From positions 1 through 44,065 of the forward strand of contig JAGCNM010000025.1 of NCBI GenBank assembly GCA_017645955.1: a stretch of 44,065 bases of DNA, given 5' to 3'. Under the pieces are notes generated by a model that saw nothing but the letters and a program-made list of their open reading frames with translations, had not been told where the DNA came from and made no database searches. A program made the translations under genes and the position numbers. Shown here piece after piece: positions 9,574 to 25,954 of this stretch. Every line of letters starts with the position of its first letter. Position 1 is the stretch's first letter. Source of the stretch: Candidatus Saccharimonadota bacterium (lineage in GTDB: Bacteria > Patescibacteriota > Saccharimonadia > Saccharimonadales > Saccharimonadaceae).

Positions 9574-9602
9574 TTGACTTTTTCGGCGAAGTGTGCTATA
9601 AT
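9574..9602 (+). promoter_or_regulatory. Full -35/-10 promoter for uvrC, leaderless
   Basis: TTGACT (9574-9579), a 17-base spacer, then TATAAT (9597-9602) preceded by TGC. The uvrC ATG follows after six bases, so the transcript should start at or next to the start codon. Confidence 0.85.
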
Positions 9603-9608
9603 TAAAAG

Positions 9609-11107: not shown

Positions 11108-12841
11108 ATGGCAAATTTTTTCAAAAAGAGTGGGCAAAAGATTTTTAACAAGTTTTCTCGTGCTTCGCTGAAGGCTGGGGAAGAAAGTAAGGAGCACATT
11201 AAGGAAAACTTAATTGATCGTTTTTCGCATATCGAAAATGTGAGGCTCTTGATTCTAGAGTGGGGGCTTTTAGTGCTTGCCTTAATGATGCTCGCAGCTA
11301 CGCAGTCGTTTTGGTTTGGTGATTCCTACGCCGGAAACGCATTTACGACAGGCGGAATTTACACGGAAGCGACAATTGGCGATGTAAATTCGATGAATCC
11401 TCTATTCGCGACAACAAACAGCGAAAAGGTCTTAAGCCGTCTGATGTTCGCGACCGTTGCGACAAATGATTATTCGGGGCATGCCGGGATTGGGCTCGCA
11501 AAAACTATCACTCCGAGCGAGGATGGGAAGGTTTGGAAGGTTAGACTGCGTGACGATTTAAAATGGTCTGACGGCGAAGCTATTACAAACGAAGATTTAT
11601 TATTTACGACTGAGCTGATCCAAAATCCCGTGATTAACTCGGTCTATGATAGCAATTTAAGGGGTGTTACAGTTTCCGAGAGCGAAGAAGGGGAAATAAT
11701 CTTTACTTTGCCTTCGGCATACGCCGATTTTATTACGGCATTAAACTTTCCGGTTTTACCTGAACACGTTTTGAAAGATGCAGATCCGAAAACTTTAGTT
11801 GAACACAGTTTTTCGAAATCGCCGGTCACATCAGGTGCTTTTTCGTTTAATGCTATGCAATCCGGGGCGTCGTCGGAAGAACGAGTTTATTATCTTGCTT
11901 CAAACCCATATTATTATAAAGGAAAGACTCTATTAAATAGCTTTGCTGTACATACTTATAAGACAAGGGAGAAGGTAATTAACGCGTTAAATTCCGGCTC
12001 TGTAACAGCTACGGCCGAGCTGACTGAGGTTGATAATGATAAGGTTAGCGCAACTTTTTTGAGGAAGAACTCGAGCCTTAATTCAGGCGCGTTTATCTTT
12101 TTCAACACAACGAATGGCGCAACTAAAAATGCTACTCTTCGGGCTGCGATTCGGGAGGGAATTAGCCTTGAGAAATTGAGGGGAGAAGCGGCGGAAACGG
12201 TGGCACTAGATTATCCTCTACTTGATTCGCAAATTAAACTAACTAGTTTCCCGGCTTTACCGGGCGAAAACTTTGAAGCAGCAAAGGAGAAGATTGCTGG
12301 GCTAAGTGGCGAAGAGCCGATTAGTTTAAATATTGTTACGGTTAATGTTGGGTTCTTACCGAAAGTAACAGAAGAATTAGGAAGAGAACTGACTGAACTC
12401 GGAATTAATGCACATACTACAGTTTATGAGGAAGGTCAGGAGTTTGTTTCGAATATTATTGCGAAACGCAATTATGATATTTTAGTATACGAGATTGAAC
12501 TTGGCGCAGACCCAGATTTATTACCTTATTACCATTCTTCTCAAGCCTCAACAACAGGCTTAAACCTTTCGAACTATCGTAACGCTCTTGTAGATGACTT
12601 ATTGCTCGGGGCGCGCGATACAACCGACGAAAACTTGAGAGTAAAGAAATATGAATCTTTCTTGGCGCATTGGGTGAGCGACGTTCCAGCGATTGGTTTA
12701 TATCGTCCGAACCTAACGTATTATTACAATAAAAATGTCCGCACGTTTAACGATGGCGTACGAATTGTGACGGCACTCGACCGATTCTGTGACCTTAATT
12801 CTTGGGCAGTCACAAAAACAACAAAGAATAAAACGCCATAA
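11108..12841 (+). CDS. Membrane-anchored peptide-binding protein (SBP family 5)
   Basis: 577 residues. After a basic N-terminus, one transmembrane helix (about 47-68) anchors a large outer domain. That domain has features of family 5 extracellular solute-binding proteins (OppA/DppA type): NSMNPLFATTN, a VWKVRLRDDLKWSDGEAIT block, an SPVTSGAF turn, and a C-terminal region with YYHSSQASTTGLNLSNY. There is no lipobox cysteine, so a helix anchor replaces the lipid. No ABC permease or ATPase genes are nearby. Likely role: capturing peptides from the host or surroundings. Its start is one base after the secG stop. No convincing terminator follows. Confidence 0.9.
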   Translation: MANFFKKSGQKIFNKFSRASLKAGEESKEHIKENLIDRFSHIENVRLLILEWGLLVLALMMLAATQSFWFGDSYAGNAFTTGGIYTEATIGDVNSMNPLFATTNSEKVLSRLMFATVATNDYSGHAGIGLAKTITPSEDGKVWKVRLRDDLKWSDGEAITNEDLLFTTELIQNPVINSVYDSNLRGVTVSESEEGEIIFTLPSAYADFITALNFPVLPEHVLKDADPKTLVEHSFSKSPVTSGAFSFNAMQSGASSEERVYYLASNPYYYKGKTLLNSFAVHTYKTREKVINALNSGSVTATAELTEVDNDKVSATFLRKNSSLNSGAFIFFNTTNGATKNATLRAAIREGISLEKLRGEAAETVALDYPLLDSQIKLTSFPALPGENFEAAKEKIAGLSGEEPISLNIVTVNVGFLPKVTEELGRELTELGINAHTTVYEEGQEFVSNIIAKRNYDILVYEIELGADPDLLPYYHSSQASTTGLNLSNYRNALVDDLLLGARDTTDENLRVKKYESFLAHWVSDVPAIGLYRPNLTYYYNKNVRTFNDGVRIVTALDRFCDLNSWAVTKTTKNKTP

Positions 12842-12902
12842 AAAGCCCTCGTATTGATAGCTGGTTAGTTAAAAGGGTCAGTTTTATTAATCTGTAAAAA
12901 TA

Positions 12903-12911
12903 TGTTATAAT
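12903..12911 (+). promoter_or_regulatory. Extended -10 promoter of the higher-GC island operon
   Basis: TGTTATAAT at 12903-12911. The predicted start near 12918 gives a leader of about 68 bases with a short palindrome (CCTAT/ATAGG at 12924-12937) and a strong AGGGGGA SD at 12970-12976. Confidence 0.65.
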
Positions 12912-12985
12912 AATAGATGATGTCCTATTTATATAGGGTGTAGTTATTTAAAGTCTTGATTATATATTTAGGGGGAGTGGTTAGA

Positions 12986-13780
12986 TTGAAAGTAAGGGAC
13001 ATTGAAGTGGGCCGCCGGATTGGCGAATCCTCGAAATTTCGCATCTACCTCGGGAAAACACCCAGCGAACAATCCGTAATTTTGAAAGTGGCAAAAACCT
13101 TTGAAGATGGCGACGTTTTAGCCTTAGAGGCCGGCGAATTCAACATTTTGTATGTCTTTAGTGAACAAATTGCAAAGTTTGAACGAAAGGCGGGGCTAGA
13201 AAGTGCCCGCTATGATTTGCTTTTCGCGAACCTAATCGCCTCTTTTTTAGAGCCTACCCAAGACGACCGGCGCATCAACGTCTTTGCGATGCCGGAAATT
13301 GATGTCAGCGAATTAATTCCGCTGACTAAACTTTCTAGCACCGTCGAGATTGATGCGCGCACGAGTGTTTGGATTTTAGGGCGTCTTTTTAAGTTCTACA
13401 GCTTTTTTGAGCTGATAGCAGCTGACGGAGACAACCCTATTTCTAGGTACCCGTTCTTTTCTCCGGACGACTACATGATTGGTCCAGAAAAGCATCGTAT
13501 AATCTACTACAATTTTACCGGTGATCTTGCCGATGTGGTAGCTTATAACTATGTTCGGGCGGTTGCGAGTTTTGTGTTTAATTGGACCGTTTTTAACAAT
13601 GACCCGATTGAACAGGAATATCGTAATCTTTTGAAAGATTTTGTGGAAGTTGGCCGCGATTCGTTCGAACAGGCGCATAAGGAACTCTACGATTTAGTTA
13701 AAAAAATCTGGGGAATTTCTTATTATCCTTTCACTTATCGCGACTGTGGCAGTATGGTTTGGAACAAGAAAGGGGAGTAA
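12986..13780 (+). CDS. Kinase-fold-like protein, probably catalytically degenerate
   Basis: 264 residues, no confident family. The N-terminus resembles a protein-kinase lobe: a glycine-loop-like GRRIGESSKFRIY, then VILKVAK with Lys34 at the ATP-lysine position, and an acidic helix LALEAGEF. A hinge-like FAMPEIDVSEL follows. No HRD triad is visible, and the place expected for DFG reads YYNFTGD, so it looks like a pseudokinase. This is inference from pattern. TTG at 12986 is chosen because it lies 9 bases after AGGGGGA (12970-12976); an upstream in-frame TTG at 12956 has no SD. The stop is 2 bases before the vWA gene, so both are in one operon. Confidence 0.75.
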   Translation: MKVRDIEVGRRIGESSKFRIYLGKTPSEQSVILKVAKTFEDGDVLALEAGEFNILYVFSEQIAKFERKAGLESARYDLLFANLIASFLEPTQDDRRINVFAMPEIDVSELIPLTKLSSTVEIDARTSVWILGRLFKFYSFFELIAADGDNPISRYPFFSPDDYMIGPEKHRIIYYNFTGDLADVVAYNYVRAVASFVFNWTVFNNDPIEQEYRNLLKDFVEVGRDSFEQAHKELYDLVKKIWGISYYPFTYRDCGSMVWNKKGE

Positions 13781-13782
13781 AA

Positions 13783-14859
13783 ATGGGACGTTCGACTTTT
13801 TCCGTAGAAAGTTACCGAAAGGCTCGCGAAGACTACGGCGTGACGCACGACACTGGCGTTACCGAAGTCGCCGAAAAGCACGCCCAGGAAACTGGGCGCC
13901 TCAGCGAAATCGTTGACCCCGCCATTAATCCGATTAGGAGATCCCTAATTCGGCTTGACCCCCACCAGAAAAAGTGGATTGCAACTATCGGCTGTCCGAT
14001 GGACATCGAAGTTAGTTGCGATACCACTGGCTCGATGGGTAGCGAGGTTGACACGGAAATGAAAGTCCTGCCGGATCTCTATAAAGCGGTAGCTAAGGTA
14101 TTGCCGGGCTACGACCCGCAGCTTTGCCTCGGTATCTTTGGCGATGTTTGTGACGATTTCGTCATGTGTCGCCCACAATTTGAGATGGAAGCACCCAAAA
14201 TCGTAAACTATCTTAAGGAGATGGCGCCTCAGCGTGATGGTGGTGATACACCCGAAGATCCGCAATATGCAATGTTTGCGCGCGCTTATCTGACCGATGC
14301 TTACACTAACCGCATTGGTCTTAAAGGGTATCACTTCATCGTGACAGATGCACCCTGCCATCATCGCCTCAACCGTAGTGAAATCGAGCGTATTTTTGGC
14401 AAAGATATCTTTGATAATGAGCTGAAAAATATGACTGAGATTCCCACGATGGAAGAGATGATTAAGGACCTTAAAGATAAGGCCCATCAGTTTATTCTGG
14501 TGATTAGTGCCAATACCAGAACCGTCAGAGACTGGTGCGATCTCTGTGGTTCGAGTTCGGTAATTAAAATTGATTCTACTCGGCAACTGCCGGCGGTCAT
14601 TTCCGCCATCATCGGTCTGACCGAGGGAACAATGGATATTGCTGACCTCGAGCGACGTATTGACTATTTTGGCCTGGCTTCACAGCTTTACAGAATCGAC
14701 ATCGGCGCGCAGGCGAAGCTTCGGCACGCTCTGCCGCATCCGGTTCCGAAAGCTGGCGACATCTTTAGAAATAAGGGTGACCTCTGGCCGATTCAGCCGG
14801 GCGACGAAGACGCCGAAGAAAAGCCGCTCGAAACTCCTGACCATATCGAATACCTATAA
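13783..14859 (+). CDS. von Willebrand factor A (vWA) domain protein with MIDAS site
   Basis: 358 residues. The vWA fold is marked by a metal-ion-dependent adhesion site: DTTGS at 80-84 (D-x-T-x-S), Thr156 in GGDTPED, and Asp189 in IVTDAPCHH. Such proteins bind partners through a divalent metal and often act with kinases or ATPases in signalling or conflict systems (TerY type). No signal peptide or transmembrane helix, so cytosolic. An upstream ATG at 13759 lies inside the previous gene; the ATG at 13783 with AGGGGAG just before it is preferred. Codons are rich in C and G compared with the core genes. Second in the island operon. Confidence 0.9.
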   Translation: MGRSTFSVESYRKAREDYGVTHDTGVTEVAEKHAQETGRLSEIVDPAINPIRRSLIRLDPHQKKWIATIGCPMDIEVSCDTTGSMGSEVDTEMKVLPDLYKAVAKVLPGYDPQLCLGIFGDVCDDFVMCRPQFEMEAPKIVNYLKEMAPQRDGGDTPEDPQYAMFARAYLTDAYTNRIGLKGYHFIVTDAPCHHRLNRSEIERIFGKDIFDNELKNMTEIPTMEEMIKDLKDKAHQFILVISANTRTVRDWCDLCGSSSVIKIDSTRQLPAVISAIIGLTEGTMDIADLERRIDYFGLASQLYRIDIGAQAKLRHALPHPVPKAGDIFRNKGDLWPIQPGDEDAEEKPLETPDHIEYL

Positions 14860-14905
14860 TCAAGATAATTAACAATTTGGTTTACAAGATGATTCGAGGT
14901 GAAAT

Positions 14906-16222
14906 ATGTTCGAAAAAATTTACGTTGTTACCGACCTTGGTCCTGGTGACGGCGGAAAAGGCAGCATCGTACACGCACTTTCGTGTAAAACCGACGCAAA
15001 TATCATTATTAAGCGCGGCGGCGCACAAGGTTCTCATGGTGTGCATGCTTCACTAGGGGAGAGTTTCAACTTTTCCCAGTGGGGATGCGGAACGCTTGAG
15101 GGCGTGCCGACTTTTCTGTCCGAACAAATGGTGATTTCGCCTGTCGGACTCGAAAACGAGTCGGAAGCCCTCAAAAAACTGGGAATATTCGACCCATTTA
15201 AACTTCTTTCCTGCGACCAGTCCTGTATCGTCGCTACGCCTTATCATAGGATTGCTTCCCAGTTTGAGGAGCTACTCTTAAAAGATAAACCGCGTGGCAC
15301 CGTCGGAACGGGTATTGGACAAGCCTATCGTATGACAAGTAACTTTGGCGGAGAGATGACAATCCGAGCCCACGATTTAACAGACCGTCGAGTTATCCGC
15401 TCGAAGCTTCAAAGACAATACGATTATTACTTTGAGCAGTACGGGAAAATCACTCGAGATGCTTTTTTGCTTGAAGATTTCCATAACTACGCCGTAAATC
15501 TCATCCGATTCCTTCACGACGAAGATTTTTTTAACTACGTTATCGACTTGTTCGACGAAATAGGCAAAAAACTGCGTCTCACGAGTTTTGATGAGGTATT
15601 AAAAGGCGACGGAACGGCAATCGTCGAGTGTTCGCACGGAGTTTTGACCGACGCCGAAATGGGCTTAAAACCCCACGTCAGCGCCATCCGAACTCTGCCG
15701 ATCTTCGCAAACAAAATGCTAAGAAACGCTGGTTATGACGGCGAAATTATCAACTACGCCGTCCACCGCGCCTACGAAATCCGTCATGGCGCCGGCCCTA
15801 TGCCGACCTATGACCCCGAGTTCACGGCACGCATGCTTCCAGGTAGTCACAAGGACAAAAACCGTTGGCAAGGCGCCGTTCGCGCTGGTCCGCTTGACCT
15901 AAATCTCATGCGATACGCACTAGATGTAAGCAAGGAAATTCAGTTTGACGGACTGGCTCTGACCTGGTTTGACCAGATTTTAGCCAATGACCGTACCTGG
16001 CCGGTCTGTTTTCATTATAAAAACAGACGAAAAGGCGACGAGTCGATTACTGAATACCTAAAACACGCCGAGCCTTTAGTGTGTAATTTCGGCATCAGAA
16101 ACCCCATCCCCGTACGAGAATTATTCAACTTTGTGGATAAAGTGCTCGAAAGTTTCCTTAAAATCCCGCTAAAAATCCTTTCAGCCGGACCTACAGAAAA
16201 GAATAAAATCTATTCAGAATGA
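14906..16222 (+). CDS. Divergent adenylosuccinate synthetase (PurA) paralogue
   Basis: 438 residues, near PurA length. Order-conserved matches: GPGDGGKGS (12-20) for GDEGKGK, IKRGGAQGSHGV for the GG-(H/N)-NAGHT block, VGTGIGQAY (133-141) for TGRGIGPAY, HGAGPMPTY (294-302) for VGAGPFPTE, and GPLDLNLMRYA for GWLDxVxLRYA. The catalytic Asp (15) and His (44) positions are kept. The aspartate-binding ATTGR loop is not recognisable, and the GTP-specificity TKLD reads TWFD (353-356). So it probably ligates or phosphorylates a different nucleotide-like substrate. It is not a standard PurA, and PurA would be unexpected alone in a purine scavenger. Third in the island operon, SD GAGGTG. Confidence 0.85.
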   Translation: MFEKIYVVTDLGPGDGGKGSIVHALSCKTDANIIIKRGGAQGSHGVHASLGESFNFSQWGCGTLEGVPTFLSEQMVISPVGLENESEALKKLGIFDPFKLLSCDQSCIVATPYHRIASQFEELLLKDKPRGTVGTGIGQAYRMTSNFGGEMTIRAHDLTDRRVIRSKLQRQYDYYFEQYGKITRDAFLLEDFHNYAVNLIRFLHDEDFFNYVIDLFDEIGKKLRLTSFDEVLKGDGTAIVECSHGVLTDAEMGLKPHVSAIRTLPIFANKMLRNAGYDGEIINYAVHRAYEIRHGAGPMPTYDPEFTARMLPGSHKDKNRWQGAVRAGPLDLNLMRYALDVSKEIQFDGLALTWFDQILANDRTWPVCFHYKNRRKGDESITEYLKHAEPLVCNFGIRNPIPVRELFNFVDKVLESFLKIPLKILSAGPTEKNKIYSE

Positions 16223-16235
16223 GGAGGATAAATCC

Positions 16236-17417
16236 ATGAGTGAGAAGAAAACCATCACTACCATCGACAACGACGTAGCGACAAAAGTCGACGTCGACGA
16301 GGCGGTCCTGGCCAAGCTCAAAGAATTTGATACCGGCACGGACACGATTACGAAAATCGTAGACGAGCTCGGCGTCGAAAGCCTCGAAGATTTGGCTTCG
16401 CTTGAAGTCTCCGATCTTACCGGTGCTGGTATGAAGCTGGCCAAAGCCCGCAAGCTCGTGAATGAGCTGAAAGCAAAGGCCGCAGCTCCTGCTGTAGCCG
16501 CTGCGGAAACCCGCGCCATCCAAACCCAGTTTGAGGCGCTTCTGCCTCCTGTGCCGACGGATGATTCTTGGCTCAACGCCTTGAAGACTGGCGGCATCCT
16601 GAAGGTGGACGAGTCGTCCTACATCGCTGCTATTCGTGCAGCACTGGCCTTCCAGGCTGGACTTTATTCCATCCCGGATGCCCTGGCAAAAGCCATGGAA
16701 AAATACGCCGATGAGACCGAAGAACAAGTCGATCCGACCTTCTACGCTCTGCGTAAGTCTCTGACTCGCCGCACCTATGGCGACATCTTCGCTGCCATCG
16801 ACGGCCTGGACGGCACTTTCATTACTGAAGGCCGTCGTAAGGAATTTCTCGGTCGCATCCGCGACACTCTGTGGCCGGCCATTGCCGAAAGCTATCAGAC
16901 GCTGGACGGCTGGTACCAGACTTGGCGCGCCAGTTTTTCTGACCCTTCGATGCTGATTGCCGCCATCGGTGGCGGATTTGGCGGTGGTGCTCCGGGAATG
17001 AGTATGATTACTCCGCCCGACACCGCACCCCTGCACGACGCCGGCGATACGTTGGTCGATTCCATCAACCGCGTCTTCCGCGGGACTGGCGTTCAGGTCG
17101 CCGCTGCCATGGCGTACGACGCCAATGTCATCCGCAATACGCTGGAAGACCCGCGCCTACCTTCTATGGTCGGCGTGAAAAACCGCGAGATGATGCTGAA
17201 GAAGATCGGCGCCGCCGTTTCTAGCAACTACGTTCGCCTGGAACAGAACCTGGTCAAATACGTCCTCGGCTTCGCCAAACACGATACTGTGACTTCCGAC
17301 GTGGAAGTCAACTACTTCGTGGCGCTCTGGCAGCTCGGCACTCAAATCAACTGGAACGAGCTCGGCGTAAGTGGCGCTGGCGGCGTGACCGGACTGACCG
17401 GGAAACGTGTCCTGTAA
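16236..17417 (+). CDS. Helical protein with SAM-like N-terminal domain, unknown function
   Basis: 393 residues, not recognised as a whole. Residues about 35-80 (VDELGVESLEDLASLEVSDL and the helix after it) resemble a SAM or helix-hairpin-helix interaction domain, followed by an Ala/Pro linker. The rest is mostly helical, with a Gly-rich loop IGGGFGGGAPGM near 245-256. No catalytic motif is obvious. It may be the scaffold or target of the vWA and PurA-like proteins (inference). GC content is about 57% in one sampled 60-base line, against about 42% in a sampled core-gene line. SD GAGGAGG; 13 bases after the PurA-like gene; last gene before a strong terminator. Confidence 0.85.
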   Translation: MSEKKTITTIDNDVATKVDVDEAVLAKLKEFDTGTDTITKIVDELGVESLEDLASLEVSDLTGAGMKLAKARKLVNELKAKAAAPAVAAAETRAIQTQFEALLPPVPTDDSWLNALKTGGILKVDESSYIAAIRAALAFQAGLYSIPDALAKAMEKYADETEEQVDPTFYALRKSLTRRTYGDIFAAIDGLDGTFITEGRRKEFLGRIRDTLWPAIAESYQTLDGWYQTWRASFSDPSMLIAAIGGGFGGGAPGMSMITPPDTAPLHDAGDTLVDSINRVFRGTGVQVAAAMAYDANVIRNTLEDPRLPSMVGVKNREMMLKKIGAAVSSNYVRLEQNLVKYVLGFAKHDTVTSDVEVNYFVALWQLGTQINWNELGVSGAGGVTGLTGKRVL

Positions 17418-17434
17418 ACCCCGCACATTAAAAT

Positions 17435-17461
17435 AGGCCCCCTTATAAGGGGGGCCTTTTT
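17435..17461 (+). terminator. Bidirectional terminator between island genes
   Basis: A GC-rich stem (17435-17444 with 17447-17457, one extra G) is followed by TTTTT on the plus strand. Read on the minus strand it is followed by TATTTTA, so it may also stop the converging nucleotidyltransferase gene. Confidence 0.88.
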
Positions 17462-17467
17462 CATGGC

Positions 17468-18628
17468 TTAAAGCCACACGTATTTTACATAGAGCATCGT
17501 GGCGATTGTACGATATTCGTCGTCGTAAAACGGACAATCGCCGTCCATTTCCTTCGGGGCATCGTAATCCATCCTGCCGGTAAACCTCGCGAAGCCTTTG
17601 TGAAGCAGCCGGTACTGCAATAAATCGCTTTCTAGCTTTTCAATTGCCCGCCTTTTTACGAAAGTTGACGGATTATTGAAATACAAATCTATGATTTTTT
17701 GCCTCATCTGTTCAAGATTCGATTTACTTCCGCCCAGCCAGACGGTATTGAGGTAAATATGAGCGCCTTCTGCGCTACCAGGATAAAGATCTTCGCTCGC
17801 GCAGAGTTCACTTAAACGCCAGACGTCCAAATCGCTATCTTTCGTTCCATAGCCCTTCAGCTTAGAACCGCCAACCATAACAATTTCTGACGGCTCAAGC
17901 TTTGAAGCAATTTCTTTAAGCTCCGTTTTAAAAGCCGGGATATTATCCGAAAACGGTCCTTCAAGCTTCGCGGATGGCGTCAGAAGTTCCGCCGGCTCGC
18001 CGAGCGAATCTAGCCACTCTTTCCGTTTTTCTGAATTATACAGCGGTTCAGATGGTTTTCTTTTAGGTAAAAACATCGTCTCGCTAGACAATTCCTCTAA
18101 CTTCAGTTCACTCAGAATTCTTTTTTCCTTAATATAGCCCCAAGTGTCTTTGAAACTCTGGCGTAAAGTATAATCTAAACCGTTGTTCCAGAGTATGTCG
18201 AGAATCTCTTTTTGGCTGAGGTAGCCATACTTTAAGAGCCAAGGTGTCAAGTGCGCGCATTTTACTACGCGCTCTAATCCTTCCTTGGGTCTTGCGTCGA
18301 GCTCAAAACAGTCGCCAAAATGGAAATTCTCACGTACATCCTTCACGTTTAGTAATCTATACCACGCTTTCTTGTACGTTTCACGGAACCATCCTGGCGC
18401 GCCCCAAAGGACCCAGAATGGTAAATAGAGTAATAACCTCTCGGAATTCGTCGCTTCAAGCAGCGCTCCACAGTTTTTATAGAACGCATCGCGCGTATGG
18501 ATTGTAGAATGGCTCCAGGCGCCTCTTTTTCCTCCTCTTAAAAATCCGCAAATATTGTCTGCAATTAAGCGTCGCGCATTATCATCATAGAACCTTCGCT
18601 CAACCGCCGGCTTCATTAAAACAGCCAC
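17468..18628 (-). CDS. Nucleotidyltransferase-fold protein
   Basis: 386 residues from the GTG at 18628. Residues about 253-269 read GGSKLKGYGTKDSDLDV, the GS-x(n)-DxD pattern of polymerase-beta-type nucleotidyltransferases, which transfer an NMP to protein, RNA or a small molecule. Residues 1-240 are helical with several Trp and have no known match. GTG is chosen over an in-frame TTG at 18661 because AGGGGGA lies just before it; the same SD type starts the island operon. It converges on that operon and shares its terminator. Close placement suggests one system, but transcription is separate. Confidence 0.82.
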   Translation of the reverse strand: MAVLMKPAVERRFYDDNARRLIADNICGFLRGGKRGAWSHSTIHTRDAFYKNCGALLEATNSERLLLYLPFWVLWGAPGWFRETYKKAWYRLLNVKDVRENFHFGDCFELDARPKEGLERVVKCAHLTPWLLKYGYLSQKEILDILWNNGLDYTLRQSFKDTWGYIKEKRILSELKLEELSSETMFLPKRKPSEPLYNSEKRKEWLDSLGEPAELLTPSAKLEGPFSDNIPAFKTELKEIASKLEPSEIVMVGGSKLKGYGTKDSDLDVWRLSELCASEDLYPGSAEGAHIYLNTVWLGGSKSNLEQMRQKIIDLYFNNPSTFVKRRAIEKLESDLLQYRLLHKGFARFTGRMDYDAPKEMDGDCPFYDDEYRTIATMLYVKYVWL

Positions 18629-18669
18629 AATTATCCCCCTCTCTATGCTTTTAATGTGCAATTAAATAT

Positions 18670-18678
18670 ATTATACCA
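18670..18678 (-). promoter_or_regulatory. Extended -10 promoter of the nucleotidyltransferase gene
   Basis: TGGTATAAT on the minus strand. Predicted start near 18663, leaving about 35 leader bases with the SD before GTG 18628. Confidence 0.65.
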
Positions 18679-18721
18679 TAATTCTATTGTTCTGTCTAAA
18701 GCAGGGAAGACTCTCTAAGAC

Positions 18722-18745
18722 ATAAAAAATGCGCTTGAGCGCGAC
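18722..18745 (-). terminator. Ancestral tRNA-Leu terminator, now separated from the gene
   Basis: Read on the minus strand: GCGC-TCAA-GCGC stem-loop (18731-18742) followed by A and TTTTTT. It lies 15 bases beyond the distal att copy, in the position expected for the terminator of tRNA-Leu before the element was inserted. Confidence 0.65.
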
Positions 18746-18759
18746 ATTCTAAAATGAAA

Positions 18760-18781
18760 TGGTGCGCCTGACTAGACTCGA
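18760..18781 (-). repeat. Distal att repeat (copy of tRNA-Leu 3' end)
   Basis: 22 bases identical to 25762-25783, beginning TGGTGCGCCTGACTAGACTC on the plus strand. It covers CCA, the 3' acceptor strand and part of the T arm. Identity stops right after 18781. Confidence 0.9.
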
Positions 18782-18955
18782 TTCGAAGAACGAGTCGGCG
18801 CGGTGTTATACAATCTTAATGGTGCCCGAAATCCAAATAATTACGAACCACTCTATGAAGTGGTCGAGTATGTAATTTTGAACCCAACTTGGTGGCCAAG
18901 CTATATTTTAGTTAATAGTGATATTAACCCTGATTTACAAGATTTCGTATACTGA
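18776..18955 (+). pseudogene. Orphan C-terminal coding fragment next to the att site
   Basis: An open frame follows the TAG inside the att repeat and ends at TGA 18953-18955. The translation looks protein-like (LYNLNGARNPNNYEPLYEVV, then NPTWWPSYILVNSDINPDL) but has no ATG and no SD; the only possible start is GTG 18803. It is probably the 3' remnant of a gene cut by integration or deletion. Family unknown. The rest of 18679-19008 holds the ancestral terminator, the att repeat and the leader of the next gene. Confidence 0.45.
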
Positions 18956-19008
18956 AACTACATCAAGGAAACTAGTTACGAACTATTAATACAATACTAG
19001 AAAGAGAG

Positions 19009-19398
19009 ATGAATATGTTAAATAATACCACCAATACTCAGGTGAAGCAGCAAACATTAAAAAATGGCAACCCAATCAATAGAGAGCGCCAGTTTGGGCA
19101 ACCTAACGGCAACAAACAGGGTAAGGGGTTCTGGAAAAAAGAAAATACCCCAAGATTTAAGCTAGAACAAATGCTAATGATGGACGAAAATGAAATTGTA
19201 GGAATAATAAACGACAAAACTAGATCATTATTTGAAAGGAAAGTTACAAAATCCTTATTTAATGAAGAGAGCTTCAAGGGGTTAGAATTAATGATAAATC
19301 AGGTATATGGACCACCAAAGCAAAAAATCGACTTAGACTACGATAATGATGAACATTACAATATTTCTTTTGTCGTAAAGGATTTCAGAAAAGAATAG
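19009..19398 (+). CDS. Small phage-like protein (possibly small-terminase-like)
   Basis: 129 residues. The N-terminus is Asn/Gln-rich and basic, with a NGNKQGKGFWKKENTPRFK segment like the start of many phage small-terminase or DUF5681-type proteins. A helical middle follows, then LMINQVYGPPKQKIDLDYD, which resembles the GKPKQ-type end of that group. The match is weak and the function is tentative. ATGAATATG gives two possible starts; GAGAG serves as a weak SD. First intact gene inside the tRNA-Leu element. Confidence 0.65.
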   Translation: MNMLNNTTNTQVKQQTLKNGNPINRERQFGQPNGNKQGKGFWKKENTPRFKLEQMLMMDENEIVGIINDKTRSLFERKVTKSLFNEESFKGLELMINQVYGPPKQKIDLDYDNDEHYNISFVVKDFRKE

Positions 19399-19478
19399 AA
19401 CAATAATTATAGAATTCAATTCAGTAGTATTACTTTGCGTCTTTAAACTGCCAATACAAAAGTGTACTATATTGACAA

Positions 19479-20735
19479 ATGAGAAGTTTTATGAAAAAAT
19501 TATGCCAGATGGTAAAAAAACAAAAAAGAATAAAACGTCATAAAAACAACTCTGCAAAGCGGAAGGTTCATAAAAAACAGAGTAAGAATAACCTCTGGAA
19601 TAATTGTTTTAAAACGAAAAAGAGCTTATTCATCTGTACGATTGTATTTCTTGTTTTAGTAGTAATTCTCACAATAATAATCGTAAATAGCGTTAATAAC
19701 TCTAAATTAATTGAGCCAGATATAGGATATATCGATTATAATCAAAAAGTTACCTCAGAGAATGATGAAGAATTCGATTCAAATTATAAAACGGGCTCAA
19801 ACAAGGATTTTTCTGTTCGTTTCCCAGAATTACAATGCGAAGAAGAATGCGACAATATTGGTACAGTCAGACTAGGTAATGATATTTTACAAAAAGACAA
19901 AGATTATATAGTGAAAAAGGGGAGCGTTATAATAGTATTACTAGCTAAAGCTATGAATCGCTTTGACACAGGAAACTATAGTCTGACTTTTGAATATACA
20001 ATAAACAATATAAAAACAATAATAGGTGTCAAGATCTCTATAGTGTCAACCAGTGCGAATGACACTTCATCAAATGAAGAGGATAAAAATGAAGACAATG
20101 CTACGGCCACAACAGATACGACTACGGCACAAGAAACGAAGCCAAATGAGACGAATGGATCTTCTAGCGGCAACAATAATAGCAGCGAAGCGCCAACACC
20201 AGAACCGCAACAGGTTATTCCCGAGAAATATAGCGATGAATGGTTCAATGCTTGTCCCAAAGATGAGTGGTGGGAAGGTAACCAAATACAATATCGTGTT
20301 TGCGCTAGGGTACCAGACCCTCATCGGCTAGGATGGACGAGAAGCGAATCAAATGATAACGTAGTAAAAGGAACGTTTGTAAATAGATGGGGTTATGCTA
20401 AAGAACATAACATGACTCAAATACTCTTGCCAGAATTCTTCTTATTCGATGTTGGCGATTCCTATGGACAAATCCACGTTCCTGATGGATTATTCCCGCA
20501 ATCAATAGAGGGCCAATACCTCGTACAATATTGGGGTTCATATCAAAACGGACGATGGTCTGTGACGGGGGAAATAAAATATCAAAGTTGTTTAGGCGAA
20601 AAATGCTACGAGCCTATCATCCTTAACGCCGAACAAACAGCATTCGTAGACAATCTCACGCAAATTGGAGAAAACTATCTGAACGAGCTTGAAGCTTCTT
20701 TCAATTATTATAGTGCGTTTCCTTATAACCATTAA
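19479..20735 (+). CDS. Membrane-anchored extracellular protein, element-encoded
   Basis: 418 residues, not recognised. A strongly basic N-terminus (Lys/Arg-rich to residue 48) precedes one transmembrane helix (about 49-71). Residues 72-190 look beta-rich. A Thr/Ser/Asn/Glu-rich linker at about 190-245 leads to a C-terminal domain with several Cys and Trp (ACPKDEWWEGNQIQYRVCAR). Topology is N-in, C-out. A second ATG at 19491 is possible. TATATT lies 5-6 bases before the first ATG, so this may be another leaderless gene. Likely a surface function carried by the element; it could alter host contact or exclude other elements (speculation). Confidence 0.78.
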   Translation: MRSFMKKLCQMVKKQKRIKRHKNNSAKRKVHKKQSKNNLWNNCFKTKKSLFICTIVFLVLVVILTIIIVNSVNNSKLIEPDIGYIDYNQKVTSENDEEFDSNYKTGSNKDFSVRFPELQCEEECDNIGTVRLGNDILQKDKDYIVKKGSVIIVLLAKAMNRFDTGNYSLTFEYTINNIKTIIGVKISIVSTSANDTSSNEEDKNEDNATATTDTTTAQETKPNETNGSSSGNNNSSEAPTPEPQQVIPEKYSDEWFNACPKDEWWEGNQIQYRVCARVPDPHRLGWTRSESNDNVVKGTFVNRWGYAKEHNMTQILLPEFFLFDVGDSYGQIHVPDGLFPQSIEGQYLVQYWGSYQNGRWSVTGEIKYQSCLGEKCYEPIILNAEQTAFVDNLTQIGENYLNELEASFNYYSAFPYNH

Positions 20736-20773
20736 TCGATAGTGATCTAACGCCAAATCTGCTTAAAACTAGT

Positions 20774-23713
20774 TCACTTTGCAATCTTTTTTCTTGTGCA
20801 ATATGGACATCTAACACTGCTATGGTGGAGATCGTGCGGAGCTGATTGCCATTTATGCCCGCTTGGGCAATTCCACCAAACTTTTTTACCCGAATTGGCG
20901 GTAATATCCGTAGGTTTTAGGCTGCCATTTTTTTCATAGTCCCACTGTTTTAATAGGCTTTTTTTGATTGTAGCTAAATCATTAACTCCCGCAATAGCGT
21001 TTCTACCGGAACAAAACGGGCAACCAACGCCTTTATTTCTACTAACGATTGTAGCTTCCCATTCGTGACCTTTCGAACATCTCCACCAAACTTTTTTGCC
21101 ATTGTTTGACGTAAAGTCTCGTGGTTTTAGATCCCCATTTTTTTCATAATTCCATTCTTTTGCCAATGTGGGATTAGTCGAGGATAGATCGTTGAGGCCA
21201 GGAACGGTTATTCTGTTGGAGCAAATAGGACAACCTCTGCCCTGATTTCTGTTGCCGATCGTAGCTTCCCATTCGTGACCTTTCGAACATCTCCACCAAA
21301 CTTTTTTGCTGCTGTTTGATGTAAAGTCTTGTGGTTTTAGATTCCCATTTTTTTCATAATTCCATTCTTTTGCTAGTTGAGGGTTTATAGATGCTAGGTC
21401 ATTAAAATTGACGAGTACTTTGTGCCCAGAACAAAACGGGCAACCAACGCCTTTATTTCTACTAACAATCGTAGCTTCCCATTCGTGACCTTTCGAACAT
21501 CTCCACCAAACTTTTTTGCCGCTGTTTGATGTAAAGTCTTGTGGTTTTAGATTCCCATTTTTTTCATAATTCCATTCTTTTGCTAGTTGAGGGTTTATAG
21601 TTATTAGATCGTTATATCCTATTAATATTTTATTACCACTACAGTAATTGCATTTACATCCACTGAGTTTACTTGGTATAGTAGTCTCATAACTATGCCC
21701 GTTCTCGCATTTTAGCCATACTTTTTTTCTAGAACCTTTACTAATATCTGTGGGCTTAATTATATTCTTTTTATAGTCCCATATAGCTAGTAATTCTGGG
21801 TTTGTGGTGGCGATATCATTAAAACCAGCTAATACCCTTTGGCCAGAACAATATGGACATTTAAGCTTTTTTGACGTTCTGCCGTTTGGCGTAGAAGCAT
21901 AGCTATGACCTTTAGGACAAATCCACCAAATTTTTTTAATATGTCCTTTTCCGACTTCTGTTGGTTTAGCCTTATTCTTTTTATAGTCCCATTCTTTTGC
22001 TAGTTCTGGATGAGTGGTAGCTAGATCATTAAATCCGGCGAGCACTTTATGGCCAGAGCAGTAAGGGCACCCACTTCTTCTATGATTAAGTAATAGAACT
22101 GAATAGCTGTGGCCTTTATCACAAATGAGCCAAACTTTCTTGTTTGCACCGCTACTTACTTCCGTAGGTTTAATTGTGTTCTTTTTATAATCCCACTTTT
22201 CTAAGAGTTCAGGCTCCGTAGTGGCTAGGTCATTGAAACCAATGAGCACTCTTTTTCCGGTGCAGTATGGACAACTGGTGCCACCGTTTATTTTATTTGA
22301 GGGAGCTGCTTGATAACTATGACCTTTTGGGCATTTCCAGTATACGTTAAAACTAACGCCAGCAGATGTATTATTCGGTGTTATGCCGTATTCATTATTT
22401 TTTTCATAATCCCATTCAGCTAAGCACTCAGGATTTGTTTTTGCTATACAATTTTCTTTATCAAAATCAATAACTAGTTTTTTAATTTCGTTATAGTCTC
22501 TAGTTATATTAATATTTAGATTAACATCCAAAATGCCTTCTAGATATATTAACCCAGGTATAATATGAGAACAGTCTGGCTTATTTTTTTGTGGTAAAGT
22601 AAAGACTAGCGAAGAAGATGTTTTTAATTCTTGAAGACAATTCTCTCTAATACGAACAAGCTTTACGCCGTTCGCTTCGCATAAAGAGTCTTTGTCTAAA
22701 TCTTTGTTTAATAAACGGTGCCAATAACCATCATATTCAATGCCTATTCTCTTACTTGGCAGGAAAATGTCTAGTTCTTTACCATTTAACCATGCTGGCC
22801 TATAGTTTTCCTCGGCATCTGGAAAAACTTTTTTTAAATAGAAGAAAATGGCTTTTTCTGGAAACGATATCCTTAACCTTTTTTTACATATTGGACAAGA
22901 TGATACGTGTCCATCAGCCGTTCGTGTATATACTGTAGCTTCCCATTTATGCCCCTTTTCACACTGCCACCAAAACTTTTGCTTACCACCTAAGGATAAA
23001 CTAGTTGGATCTACAGTGTTTTTTTCATAATCCCATTCCTTCGCTAATTCTGGATATTTTGTCAAAAGGTTGTTTTCTGATGTGGCTCTACGTCCCGAAC
23101 AATATGGGCATCCGCAACCCTCTTTACTATTATTGATGATTGTGGCTTGGTAACTATGTCCTTTTGGACACTTCCACCAAATGTTTCCAGAGTACCCTCT
23201 ACTGATTTCTGTAGGTTTTACTACGTTTTTTTCATAATCCCAGTATTTAATAAGTTCTGGGTTGGTTGTGGCTACATCGTTTAAACCAGCTAAAACTCTT
23301 CTATTTGAGCAATATGGACAACCAACCCCATGAGTTCTAGGAAAAATTACTGAATCATAGCTATGACCTTTTGGGCATTTCCACCATACTTTATCTTTAA
23401 AACCGACGCCTATTTTATTAGGGAATATTCCAAGTTTATTATTCTTATCATAATCCCATTCTTTTAATAACTGTGGGCACTTTGTGGCGAAATCGTTAAA
23501 GCCTTCCAGGAGTCTATGTCCTGAACAATATGGACAACCTAGATGGCGTCTGGTTCTATCACAGATTTTAAGTTGGTAGTGATGCCCTTTATCACATATC
23601 CACCAAGCTTCCTTTCCAGATCCAAAAGTAATATCCTCGAAAAAGATTCCATTCTCACCATTTTTTTTATAATCCCATTCTTTTGCTAGGTTGGGGTAGT
23701 CTTTTTTTAACAT
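20774..23713 (-). CDS. Zinc-ribbon array protein with embedded PD-(D/E)XK-like nuclease
   Basis: 979 residues. I count 12 repeats of about 65-75 residues of the DUF4379 (probable zinc-ribbon) type: P-x-L-x-x-x-W(D/N)Y-x-KN, then W-x-C-x-x-GH, then C-P-x-C, then N-D-L. Four precede and eight follow an inserted domain (about 285-375) with FPEKAIFFYL, GKELDIFLPSKRIGIEYDG and KLVRIREN, the Vsr/DUF559-like layout whose acidic residues bind the catalytic metal. Probably a DNA endonuclease using the ribbon array to read a long target. Repeats 9-11 are nearly identical in DNA as well, showing recent duplication. Starts 11 bases after a -10 box; divergent from an HNH gene. Confidence 0.9.
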   Translation of the reverse strand: MLKKDYPNLAKEWDYKKNGENGIFFEDITFGSGKEAWWICDKGHHYQLKICDRTRRHLGCPYCSGHRLLEGFNDFATKCPQLLKEWDYDKNNKLGIFPNKIGVGFKDKVWWKCPKGHSYDSVIFPRTHGVGCPYCSNRRVLAGLNDVATTNPELIKYWDYEKNVVKPTEISRGYSGNIWWKCPKGHSYQATIINNSKEGCGCPYCSGRRATSENNLLTKYPELAKEWDYEKNTVDPTSLSLGGKQKFWWQCEKGHKWEATVYTRTADGHVSSCPICKKRLRISFPEKAIFFYLKKVFPDAEENYRPAWLNGKELDIFLPSKRIGIEYDGYWHRLLNKDLDKDSLCEANGVKLVRIRENCLQELKTSSSLVFTLPQKNKPDCSHIIPGLIYLEGILDVNLNINITRDYNEIKKLVIDFDKENCIAKTNPECLAEWDYEKNNEYGITPNNTSAGVSFNVYWKCPKGHSYQAAPSNKINGGTSCPYCTGKRVLIGFNDLATTEPELLEKWDYKKNTIKPTEVSSGANKKVWLICDKGHSYSVLLLNHRRSGCPYCSGHKVLAGFNDLATTHPELAKEWDYKKNKAKPTEVGKGHIKKIWWICPKGHSYASTPNGRTSKKLKCPYCSGQRVLAGFNDIATTNPELLAIWDYKKNIIKPTDISKGSRKKVWLKCENGHSYETTIPSKLSGCKCNYCSGNKILIGYNDLITINPQLAKEWNYEKNGNLKPQDFTSNSGKKVWWRCSKGHEWEATIVSRNKGVGCPFCSGHKVLVNFNDLASINPQLAKEWNYEKNGNLKPQDFTSNSSKKVWWRCSKGHEWEATIGNRNQGRGCPICSNRITVPGLNDLSSTNPTLAKEWNYEKNGDLKPRDFTSNNGKKVWWRCSKGHEWEATIVSRNKGVGCPFCSGRNAIAGVNDLATIKKSLLKQWDYEKNGSLKPTDITANSGKKVWWNCPSGHKWQSAPHDLHHSSVRCPYCTRKKIAK

Positions 23714-23724
23714 ATCTTGCGCTA

Positions 23725-23779
23725 ATTATACCTGACGTAATTATAGCATATTTGCATTATCGAAATAAGATGATATAAT
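23725..23779. promoter_or_regulatory. Divergent promoters for the two nuclease genes
   Basis: On the minus strand TATAAT (23730-23725) drives the zinc-ribbon nuclease with a leader of about 5 bases. On the plus strand TGATATAAT (23771-23779) drives the HNH gene with a leader of about 20 bases. Confidence 0.6.
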
Positions 23780-23805
23780 ATTATTTAGTAAAAGTAATAG
23801 AGTAA

Positions 23806-24573
23806 ATGCGAGAAGAAACTACTAGAATTTGTAGGGTGTGCAGTAAAGAAAAACCTCTAGACGAGTTTCGTATCAGGGGGGATTCTGGCAAGCGTAGAAC
23901 GGAGTGTAAAAGTTGTCTAAGTGAGTATTTAAAAGAATATAGGAAAGCAAACAGACAGCATATTTCTGAACTCAATAAAAATTGGAGAGAAGAACACAAA
24001 AAAGAATTGTTAGAGTATCAGCTTAATTGGCAGCGAAATAATAGAGAAAAATGCCATTCTTATAATAAGAAATCTAGCCAGAATATGGCAGAGGAAAGAA
24101 GAGCAAAAGCAAATTTACGTTATAAAAGGTATAGAGATGCTAGAAAGAATAATCCAGAGTTCAGGGAGTATATTAGAGTAAAGAATCGTGAATCGAGTAA
24201 GCGTCGTCGTAAAAAAATAACAGCTTATGAAGAAAATCGTAAGAAAGTTGACCCCATTTTTAAATTAAAAAAACAAATTAGAAATGAGATTAGGGAATCA
24301 TTTAATCGTAGAGGTTTTAGAAAATCTAAACGTACTGAAGAAATAGTGGGTTGTACCTTGCAAGAGCTATACCATTATCTATGTAAGACATATTTAACTA
24401 GATATGGGGAAATATATGACGGTAATAAGGTCGTACATATAGATCATATAATCCCGCTCGCTTCGGCAAAAAGCAAGAAAGACGTTGTAAGACTATGCCA
24501 TTACACAAATCTTCAGTTATTAAAACCTGAAGATAATTTGGAGAAAAATGATAGCTTAGATTGGTGTTTATAG
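23806..24573 (+). CDS. HNH endonuclease with N-terminal zinc ribbon
   Basis: 255 residues. The N-terminus has a four-Cys zinc site (CRVCSKEKPLDEF, then CKSC). The middle is a long, very basic helical stretch rich in Lys, Arg and Asn, suited to DNA contact. The C-terminus is an HNH nuclease: VVHIDHIIPLASAKSKKDV, LCHYTNLQLLKPEDN and a final EKND. No SD is visible. This architecture is common in phage and homing-type endonucleases. It is divergent from the 979-residue nuclease, and both lie in the element, so they could work as a pair in transfer or defence (inference). Confidence 0.88.
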   Translation: MREETTRICRVCSKEKPLDEFRIRGDSGKRRTECKSCLSEYLKEYRKANRQHISELNKNWREEHKKELLEYQLNWQRNNREKCHSYNKKSSQNMAEERRAKANLRYKRYRDARKNNPEFREYIRVKNRESSKRRRKKITAYEENRKKVDPIFKLKKQIRNEIRESFNRRGFRKSKRTEEIVGCTLQELYHYLCKTYLTRYGEIYDGNKVVHIDHIIPLASAKSKKDVVRLCHYTNLQLLKPEDNLEKNDSLDWCL

Positions 24574-24597
24574 CGAAACAAATTCAAGATTTATTGT

Positions 24598-25512
24598 TTA
24601 ATAGCAATTAGTATATGTATAATTACCGACTGAATTAGTAGTACAGTATAAGTAATTACTACCACCATTATTAATTGTTGAATTCTTAGCCGATTCAATA
24701 TAAGAATCTGTTTCGCTCTTTTTTATCCTAAGTTCACTAATATTGGATTCGTATTGTCCGCTCCCATATTTTTCATAACAATTTATTTCTTCTTGATATC
24801 CATTACTTAAACGTGTTAGTAAGGCAATAGTTGTCGTCATATCATTTTCTGCTCTCTGGAGCTCTTCGTCAGAAATAGTACTATTGTTCTGCGCATTTCT
24901 AACACAAGTCGACAAATCGGATTCCTGCTTATAAGTCTCGGCTTCTTTTTTATAAGATTCTAATTCATCAACTTTTTCTTGATAGTCCTTTACTTGATAC
25001 CTATTGTAGCAAGATAACGCCATATCATATTCTTCAATCCTTAGTTCAACTTGAGGACGATTACCAATTGTTATATCAAGTGTCGTGATAGGAGGTTTAA
25101 AAATTGAACGTTTAATTGAGTCGATCTCCCCTAATTGAAATCCACTATTAGAATATATCTTTTTGTATCCATCGTATAGGCAACTATTAAGTTTATTATC
25201 TAGCTCCGCCATATGTTTTGCTTCAATTATTTTAGGGACAATAATAATAGCAGCAATAATTAAGCCTATTACAGCCAAAACTACAGCGCCAATAATTATG
25301 TATGCTTTTGTCTTGAAAGGTTTTTTGTTTTCAGTTTTTATCTTGCCATTAACTAAATAGTAATTCTTTTCTCCCTTTTCTTCTTCAATAAGTATAATAT
25401 CGCCAACTTTACATTTGAAATCAATTTTGTCCGCTGATATAGTGATGACCTTGTCATCTTTAGTTATTGTTTTAACAGTATCGCCGTCTGTCTTAATCAC
25501 TTCAACGCGCAT
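24598..25512 (-). CDS. Membrane protein with cytoplasmic beta domain and outer helical region
   Basis: 304 residues from ATG 25512, chosen because AAGGAG lies 6 bases upstream; an earlier in-frame ATG at 25542 has no SD. Residues 1-60 look beta-rich and soluble (VEVIKTDGDTVKTI). A transmembrane helix spans about 68-93. The outer part has Cys spaced along charged helices (EKVDELESYKKEAETYKQ), suggesting a coiled coil, and ends Cys- and Tyr-rich. No family recognised. It is the last gene before the tRNA end of the element and converges on the HNH gene. Confidence 0.78.
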   Translation of the reverse strand: MRVEVIKTDGDTVKTITKDDKVITISADKIDFKCKVGDIILIEEEKGEKNYYLVNGKIKTENKKPFKTKAYIIIGAVVLAVIGLIIAAIIIVPKIIEAKHMAELDNKLNSCLYDGYKKIYSNSGFQLGEIDSIKRSIFKPPITTLDITIGNRPQVELRIEEYDMALSCYNRYQVKDYQEKVDELESYKKEAETYKQESDLSTCVRNAQNNSTISDEELQRAENDMTTTIALLTRLSNGYQEEINCYEKYGSGQYESNISELRIKKSETDSYIESAKNSTINNGGSNYLYCTTNSVGNYTYTNCY

Positions 25513-25682
25513 CATATTCTCCTTAATACCATTATAAATCATTTATGGCTTTTTTTATAAATAATACACTTATGCTTGAACCTCATGTGTCATATGAGAT
25601 AATACGATTGGCGGTGCGCAGGTTTAGAAAATGCAGAGTCATAAAAGAGACCTTGCCACATATAAACAAATACTCTATAAAG

Positions 25683-25716
25683 ACAAAAATGAGGTTTCTT
25701 TCAGATGGAAGAAACC
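25683..25716 (-). terminator. Terminator downstream of tRNA-Leu
   Basis: Read on the minus strand, an 8-bp perfect stem (25716-25709 with 25700-25693) is followed by TCATTTTTGTCTTT. It would end the tRNA-Leu transcript and appears to be brought by the element, replacing the one at 18722-18745. The interval 25513-25761 otherwise holds only short shadow frames. Confidence 0.7.
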
Positions 25717-25761
25717 CCTCGAATACATTCTTGATAGCACTAAAACCAACAAAACTAGCTT

Positions 25762-25783
25762 TGGTGCGCCTGACTAGACTCGA
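25762..25783 (-). repeat. Proximal att repeat within tRNA-Leu
   Basis: 22 bases identical to 18760-18781; forms the CCA, acceptor 3' strand and part of the T arm of the intact tRNA gene. Confidence 0.9.
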
Positions 25784-25852
25784 ACTAGCACAGCCGTGAA
25801 TCTGGCCACTACCACCTCAAGGTAGCGTGTCTACCAATTCCACCACAGGCGC
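25762..25852 (-). tRNA. tRNA-Leu (anticodon GAG)
   Basis: 91 bases including an encoded CCA. The acceptor stem GCGCCTG pairs with CAGGCGC. The anticodon arm is CTACC-TTGAGGT-GGTAG, giving anticodon GAG, which reads CUC/CUU leucine codons. The long variable arm is typical of tRNA-Leu, and the T loop is TTCGAGT. Its 3' end is the integration site of the adjacent element; the duplicated 22 bases keep the tRNA intact. Confidence 0.95.
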
Positions 25853-25860
25853 ATGTTGAT

Positions 25861-25869
25861 ATTATACCA
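25861..25869 (-). promoter_or_regulatory. Promoter of tRNA-Leu
   Basis: TGGTATAAT on the minus strand, eight bases before the tRNA 5' end, so transcription would begin one or two bases ahead of the mature end. Confidence 0.65.
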
Positions 25870-25923
25870 TAATTTTTTGTTTTAATACAATTAAAACTTT
25901 TTTTAGAATTAACGGTTATCCTA

Positions 25924-25932
25924 TGTTATAAT
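25924..25932 (+). promoter_or_regulatory. Extended -10 promoter of the DUF916-like gene
   Basis: TGTTATAAT at 25924-25932, with a leader of about 16 bases containing AAAGGAGAGG before ATG 25955. Confidence 0.65.
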
Positions 25933-25954
25933 TGAGTAAATAAAGGAGAGGTAA

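Follow-up and report, generated by a model that had tools for sequence, protein, structure and literature searches.

Do the five adjacent genes at positions 12986–18616 of a stretch of Saccharibacterial DNA work as one system, and if so, what chemistry might they carry out? The stretch (hereafter the window, 44,065 nucleotides) is positions 1–44,065 of contig JAGCNM010000025.1 (GCA_017645955.1, Candidatus Saccharimonadota bacterium) and belongs to a 0.91-Mb genome; the records of its close relatives bear the title Candidatus Saccharibacteria. The genes run in the order KIN–VWA–PURA–SAM, with NTT convergent, and encode a kinase-fold protein, a von Willebrand A (vWA) domain protein, a member of the adenylosuccinate synthetase (PurA) family, a SAM/HhH domain protein, and a pol-beta-type nucleotidyltransferase. 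The PurA family has two recognized jobs, synthesis of adenosine monophosphate (AMP) and of the phage Z base. We found that the five genes co-occur across Patescibacteria and that the first three travel more widely, on plasmids and phages, and the cassette looks like an undescribed nucleotide-handling system.

The five genes are kept together across Patescibacteria

A species-wide scan with the vWA gene returned 49 independently fetched loci, titled Saccharibacteria, Paceibacterota, Sungiibacteriota, Harrisonbacteria, Zambryskibacteria, Patescibacteria, or plainly "bacterium." All five genes were present in 42 of these vWA-bearing loci, well above chance and almost always in the same layout (NTT lay upstream in two, L042 and L054); the other seven loci ended at contig edges or had lost or diverged genes. 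KIN was present in 48 of the 49. We found vWA homologues in 13 further genomes of the window's genus and in one from another family, and only one of these 14 lacks the complete set; NTT is upstream in one. Sampling the phylum evenly (380 genomes) gave 10 matches, six of them strong, and within the window's genus the cassette is patchy. Pairwise distances of the five proteins correlate with one another (Spearman 0.48–0.87, 0 of 500 permutations). These results support the conclusion that the five genes make up one system rather than a scatter of genes. The first-pass annotation of this DNA, made from the letters alone, had suggested a gene-neighborhood search as the check on this grouping, and the search did not refute it.

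Some loci depart from the common arrangement. In one genome (G037), the vWA gene is followed directly by NTT (L044/L025) and KIN, PURA, and SAM are gone from that contig; a 3-kb contig of the same genome (L113) carries KIN, PURA, and SAM without VWA, and the cassette there looks rearranged or misassembled. An AAA_28 protein with a weak CYTH-type C terminus lies upstream of the cassette in six loci (L043, L045–L048, and L050; for example, L047 6109–7227).

PURA appears to keep the GTP side of PurA and to have changed partner substrates

PURA belongs to the adenylosuccinate synthetase superfamily (PF00709, 4.6e-35), scoring 121.6 bits against a curated cut-off of 27, which bears out the earlier call of a PurA paralogue. 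Against the NCBIfam PurA equivalog it reached 92.8 bits, far under the cut-off of 402. In a tree of the family, both PurZ and triad PURA (that is, PURA of the KIN–VWA–PURA core described below) fall outside canonical PurA; the relation between PurZ and the triad clade was not resolved (support 0.16).

Like canonical PurA, PURA keeps the residues of the guanosine triphosphate (GTP) side, namely D13, K16, H41, and D333 (Escherichia coli numbering), with a Vibrio phage sequence as the exception at D333. The catalytic Asp at the D13 position occurs in all 44 aligned triad members, eight of them from plasmids and phages. PURA differs from canonical PurA in the loop that contacts inosine monophosphate (IMP) and aspartate (TTGRxRR in PurA): in all aligned triad members the R303 column is empty and T301 is replaced by Gln, with an aromatic-QG motif standing instead. 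T129, R131, R143, and K331 are changed in most members, and Q224 is His in the Patescibacteria only. In PurA, R303 balances the O2′ of IMP and contacts aspartate (PMC8342488). The residue pattern says that GTP-dependent phosphoryl activation has probably been kept while the partner substrates have changed. The PurA blocks with altered substrate loops seen at first reading are present and conserved in the homologues.

PURA is accompanied by a vWA protein and a predicted pseudokinase

Because Pfam gave no match for the window copies of KIN and VWA, even at E 0.1, we relied on folds and homologues for both. The closest solved folds to the AlphaFold2 (AF2) model of VWA (pLDDT 91.5) were integrin beta I-like domains (VIA-align Z 15.9 over 188 residues, root-mean-square deviation 2.9), and this comparison confirmed the vWA fold that had been predicted. 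The residues of the metal-ion-dependent adhesion site (MIDAS), also picked out at first reading, are present and conserved (DxTGSMG), and D-x-[TS]-G-S is retained in the plasmid and phage homologues.

The KIN profile aligned to the catalytic-loop region of CK2 (E 0.009), and relatives of KIN match Pkinase in one mycobacteriophage (8.2e-9) and at L116 (6.5e-29), in keeping with the kinase-fold call. The window copy and those of most close relatives retain the N-lobe Lys and Glu, and no aligned cassette, plasmid, or phage row has the HRD Asp; the DFG Asp is lost in the window and survives in some deep branches of the cassette members. KIN is thus a predicted pseudokinase in cassette members, and the earlier description of a kinase-like lobe without HRD or DFG holds. 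The catalytic Asp is kept only in the kinase relatives of L116 and L084, which have a different gene order or setting, so its loss would have come after an active ancestor. In the L084 kinase, LDIKPEN and DLG are intact and the C terminus bears an HSGH motif; this motif resembled an NMN-adenylyltransferase (NMN, nicotinamide mononucleotide) by eye, but phmmer against the PDB returned nothing, and we do not use it as evidence.

KIN, VWA, and PURA form a separable core found on plasmids and phages

Outside Patescibacteria, every PURA relative inspected is preceded by a vWA gene, either immediately or with one small gene between, and a kinase-fold gene usually comes ahead of the vWA gene. We found this core on plasmids of Variovorax (with a Zn-ribbon kinase), Rhodococcus and Tsukamurella (with a J-domain-like kinase and a Nudix gene after it), Acetobacter, and Rhizobiaceae including Allorhizobium and Rhizobium leguminosarum. 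Of 20 plasmid records with the vWA gene, 18 were inspected for PURA: it lies beside the vWA gene in 17, and Rhodovulum has none within 6 kb. Among phage records, vWA (206) and PURA (218) have a near-identical distribution (Mycobacterium, 188 versus 189; Rhizobium, 10 versus 10; Vibrio, 6 versus 6), and the surplus PURA matches (Listeria, Salmonella, Staphylococcus, and other single records) are probably host PurA. About 190 mycobacteriophages carry the triad, with the PurA-like gene near the genome end, as in Mikro (J-domain kinase gp255, vWA gp256, gp257, and PurA-like gp258); KIN is fused to a J domain in actinobacteria and mycobacteriophages. Rhizobium and Vibrio jumbo phages carry VWA–PURA pairs. 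Triads without SAM and NTT also occur inside Patescibacteria (L116, L117, and L119). KIN–VWA–PURA is the wider, separable core of the cassette.

A protein resembling a pyruvate kinase barrel is found within or beside the core at L119 (6406–7338) and L116 (13150–14253), and L117 has a protein alike in size and place (6824–7774).

In several lineages the core lies among NAD genes

We counted, by similarity, a cluster of nicotinamide adenine dinucleotide (NAD) genes wherever three or more NAD gene types lay near the core. Such clusters occur in six of about 55 Patescibacterial loci. The six are deep-branching, and those placed in the PURA tree fall on at least three separate branches. L064 has an NrtR-type Nudix regulator, a flavin adenine dinucleotide (FAD)-binding NadB-type protein, and NadA on one flank, and NadE, NAD kinase (NadK), a Nudix protein, an NMN-adenylyltransferase-type (NadM-type) protein, and NAPRT on the other. 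At L075 we found Nudix, NAPRT, a PncA-type isochorismatase, ADP-ribosylglycohydrolase (ARG), NrtR, NadE, and a NadD-type protein. L117, which has the core only, has NrtR, NadD-type, PncA-type isochorismatase, NAD-kinase-type, ARG, Nudix, and NAPRT genes, and L066, L070, and L077 have subsets of the NAD gene set. ARG is near the cassette in only 7 of about 55 loci and is absent from the window genome.

Related genes appear beside the core elsewhere. An NrtR_WHD–Nudix protein adjoins it on Allorhizobium and Rhodovulum plasmids and, weakly, in Rhodococcus, and a NADAR gene lies close to the Vibrio phage VWA–PURA pair. On L084, a 416-kb IMG/VR contig, a SAM homologue adjoins vWA-like and kinase genes, with a PARP gene some 4–6 kb away. 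We conclude that the genomic context would place the chemistry of the core in the NAD+/ADP-ribose network. L084 also shows, at 2013–3458 and 8193–9875, a WGR–PARP_reg–PARP protein (PF00644, 2.7e-30) near the kinase.

SAM and NTT are probable accessory proteins

SAM is the most conserved protein of the cassette among close relatives, although in L064 and L076 essentially only its N-terminal part can be aligned. It matches PF22931 at E 1.8e-4, under that family's cut-off, and NCBIfam gave only a sub-threshold NusA-repeat match. In the AF2 model (pLDDT 75.8), residues 22–85 match SAM and NusA HhH folds (Z 7.2–7.5) and the remainder has no match; Foldseek found no PDB match for the whole-chain model. 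A likeness of its long helix to pore-forming toxins (Z under 5.5) was at the level expected of helical bundles and was discarded.

The NTT motif GGSxLKGYG..SDLD is conserved among homologues, one of which (L064) matches Polbeta (PF18765) at 29.0 bits against a cut-off of 26.9, and the NTT profile matches HI0073 (E 0.0012). Both the GG/GS...DxD motif and the profile match therefore place NTT among the pol-beta nucleotidyltransferases, as the GS-DxD motif had suggested at first reading. PADLOC and NCBIfam searches gave no name for KIN, VWA, or NTT.

Layout, composition, and genomic setting

The intergenic gaps of the cassette are 2 (KIN/VWA), 46 (VWA/PURA), 13 (PURA/SAM), and 50 bases (SAM/NTT). 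Coordinates, gaps, and the shared hairpin all match the tight four-gene operon and convergent fifth gene that had been described (Table 1). The hairpin between SAM and NTT has a T tail on the plus strand and a weaker one on the minus strand (RNA fold z –2.48); because the hairpin scan overall was not above chance, the terminator call rests on position and stem strength.

Table 1. Features of the cassette and its surroundings in the window
Feature	Positions	Strand	Basis
KIN, kinase-fold protein, predicted pseudokinase, 264 aa	12986..13780	+	See text
VWA, von Willebrand A domain protein, ATG start	13783..14859	+	AlphaFold2 model and fold comparison
MIDAS motif DTTGS of VWA	14020..14034	+	D79, T81, and S83 invariant in 42 cassette members
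PURA, PurA-family GTP-dependent ligase-like enzyme	14906..16222	+	PF00709, phrog_1211, residues
GPGDGGKG loop of PURA with catalytic Asp (D13 equivalent)	14939..14962	+	Asp in 36/36 cassette members
NRWQGxVRxG loop of PURA, replacing PurA TTGRxRR (IMP/aspartate loop)	15860..15889	+	Alignment of triad members
SAM, SAM/HhH domain and all-helical domain	16236..17417	+	AF2 model, fold matches
Hairpin between SAM and NTT, likely bidirectional terminator	17435..17457	.	10-bp GC-rich stem
NTT, pol-beta-type nucleotidyltransferase	17468..18616	-	Motif, Pfam match of homologue, profile match
NTT nucleotidyltransferase motif GGSKLKGYGTKDSDLD	17825..17872	-	Conserved
Inserted island bearing the cassette	12842..25954	.	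Flanking genes adjacent in L123, L124, L125, and L126

The C/G-rich composition that had set these genes apart from the core genes was borne out by measurement: GC is 0.489 in the cassette and 0.385 in the flanks, and GC at third codon positions is 0.67 in SAM against 0.38–0.45 in most core genes (0.51 in UvrB). Of 41 homologous loci, 40 show the excess too (mean +4.3 points, SAM highest). The high GC is therefore characteristic of these genes and more than a trace of recent import, and we dropped it as a mark of such import. The island is an insertion all the same. The genes at 11108–12841 and 25955–26941 are direct neighbors in four cassette-free relatives of the same genus, and the cassette therefore lies within an inserted 13-kb island. 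A tRNA-Leu (25762–25852) is close to the right end of the island, and the genes around it are housekeeping genes, as judged from translations (GAPDH, enolase, UvrC, SecG, ribosomal proteins, ProRS, LysRS, and UvrB).

Elsewhere in the island, a 979-aa protein (20774–23713) has about 12 repeats with zinc-ribbon-like CPxGH...W and CPYC pairs and holds an endonuclease-like insert, DIFLPSKRIGIEYDGYWH; a small protein (23806–24573) has a Cys-rich N terminus and an HNH-like end (HIDHIIPL). In the rest of the window, uppS (undecaprenyl diphosphate synthase, 31117–31787) is split into overlapping frames (31117–31395 and 31368–31787) where relatives have one intact frame (L122 8357–9028), a frameshift or assembly error. 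Two very similar surface-protein-like genes on the minus strand (42617–43963 and 37156–39003) are likely duplicates.

Discussion

The residue pattern of PURA, the NAD/ADP-ribose context, and the scaffold-type partners lead us to favor a regulated nucleotide-modifying enzyme. Our best explanation, held tentatively and with a little less than even confidence, is a five-gene system built on an ancestral triad core and devoted to GTP-dependent nucleotide modification in the NAD/ADP-ribose network. We infer substrate, product, complex formation, and output in this model, as well as the end they would serve (metabolic repair, defense, or counter-defense). The pseudokinase–vWA–PurA-like triad would be the ancestral core. 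PURA, with the GTP site and acid/base pair of adenylosuccinate synthetase apparently kept and the second-substrate pocket rewritten, would draw on GTP to activate a nucleotide that is purine or purine-like but not IMP, and would couple this nucleotide to some amine besides aspartate, or to aspartate in a different binding mode. VWA and KIN may form a scaffold or switch, dependent on Mg2+ and perhaps responsive to ATP, that controls PURA. Patescibacteria would have added two parts: SAM, probably a self-assembling platform, and NTT, which as the probable output would transfer the PURA product or make use of it. A bolder version, a new machine spanning bacteria, plasmids, and phages that makes a novel purine (di)nucleotide conjugated to an amino acid or amine in NAD+/ADP-ribose metabolism, with the Patescibacterial NTT and SAM using the product as a signal or modifier, is possible but on the doubtful side. 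Of the two products proposed in the first-pass annotation, a modified nucleotide would agree with our model and a nucleotidylated protein is a further conjecture; neither the separable core nor its NAD setting figured there.

Several observations weigh against the NAD/ADP-ribose reading. NAD clusters are limited to six of about 55 Patescibacterial loci, the window has none nearby, and in neither the mycobacteriophage nor the Variovorax loci was an NAD gene recognized next to the triad. NAPRT is missing from the window genome, where the NadE-like match is partial (26.7 bits) and unconvincing, so the cassette there would work without NAD synthesis of its own. The SAM C-terminal domain and the N-terminal 240 residues of NTT have no assigned fold.

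The same chemistry could serve another purpose. In a phage-defense (conflict) system of the vWA–kinase type, PURA would produce or break down a nucleotide signal when a phage infects, with the pseudokinase and vWA protein as sensors and NTT as the effector. The patchy occurrence of the cassette, its inserted island, and the plasmid-borne core fit this idea, as do two known kinds of system. The TerY-P triad (TerY-like vWA, Ser/Thr kinase, and PP2C) is likewise a compact operon in which a vWA protein is paired with a protein of kinase fold, and it is found with mobile and conflict genes; such triads are associated with restriction systems, and antiphage activity is known from related modules (PMC11090510). 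ARG-centered systems combine an NrtR-type Nudix regulator, ARG, and vWA chaperones, as at L117 and L075, and are predicted to counter ADP-ribosylation and to be antiviral (PMC9503650). The likenesses are incomplete. The cassette has PURA in third place and no PP2C among its five proteins, its kinase has lost the catalytic Asp where the TerY-P kinase is catalytically equipped and, as described, bears a Zn ribbon, and no Ter genes were recognized in the loci examined. With no PP2C and a dead kinase, the cassette is not a TerY-P triad, and the Ter-type membership raised in the first-pass annotation is not supported in that form, its vWA part excepted. There is a real chance that the cassette is a kind of its own rather than kin of the vWA–kinase systems that its TerY-P-like layout recalls. 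In the ARG-centered systems the glycohydrolase is the core, whereas here it is optional and pseudokinase–vWA–PURA is constant, and PMC9503650 makes no mention of adenylosuccinate synthetase or PurA. Moreover, none of the five proteins has a PADLOC match at E 0.1, defense genes were not seen to cluster near the Patescibacterial loci, the core is carried by phages themselves, and SAM and VWA are well conserved among relatives rather than fast-evolving. We consider a defense role unlikely, if a serious contender.

If the module instead began on the phage side, as NAD+ maintenance or counter-defense later taken over by bacteria and plasmids, the core would repair or rebuild a damaged NAD-type nucleotide. 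About 205 phage records have the core, NADAR lies near the Vibrio pair, and other phage routes to NAD+ rebuilding are known, such as NARP1 (PMC12774641). However, the phage loci read showed no identifiable NARP enzyme next to the triad, and the PURA tree gave no clear phage origin. We consider this reading improbable.

Plain purine biosynthesis, with PURA a diverged PurA making adenylosuccinate where the normal enzyme was lost, would fit the finding that all PF00709 members found in the window's genus are of the triad type. Yet a PF00709 protein is missing altogether from most of the same-genus genomes searched, the IMP/aspartate loop is lost, and PURA is strictly linked to VWA. One genome (G145) holds canonical PurA (466 bits) alongside cassette PURA (107 bits); PURA is therefore no stand-in for PurA, and this alternative is very improbable. 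DNA base modification of the PurZ/PurZ0 (2-aminoadenine) type, also the work of a PurA-family paralogue in phages, is the least credible: the best PHROG is phrog_1211 (2-aminooxy adenylosuccinate synthetase, 1.6e-38) and phage records bear that name, but the catalytic Asp, kept throughout the triad, is Ser in PurZ (in that of SH-Ab 15497, and in 147 of 147 phage PurZ in PMC12884076), so PURA is not PurZ, and it further differs in its linkage to the vWA gene and in the chromosomal location of its Patescibacterial copies. The PurZ companions DatZ, MazZ/DUF550, and DutZ were not recognized near the phage loci read, a search of neighborhoods and not of whole phage genomes.

We found no description of the triad or cassette in the literature covered, to which a 2012 paper on Ter systems did not belong; an earlier mention is possible. 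In a 2026 study, which covered 481 viral PurA homologues, 251 of 767 sequences were assigned to a PurA group and 151 to a PurZ group (PMC12884076); by subtraction, 365 pass without comment in the section concerned, and the mycobacteriophage branch would be among them.

That a third widespread branch of the PurA family is bound up with a vWA–pseudokinase scaffold, and with NAD genes in several lineages, points toward an unknown nucleotide. The branch gives a directly testable meaning to the unexplained PurA-like gene of about 190 mycobacteriophages, and likewise to a cassette kept by Saccharibacteria, whose very small genomes have little nucleotide metabolism to spare.

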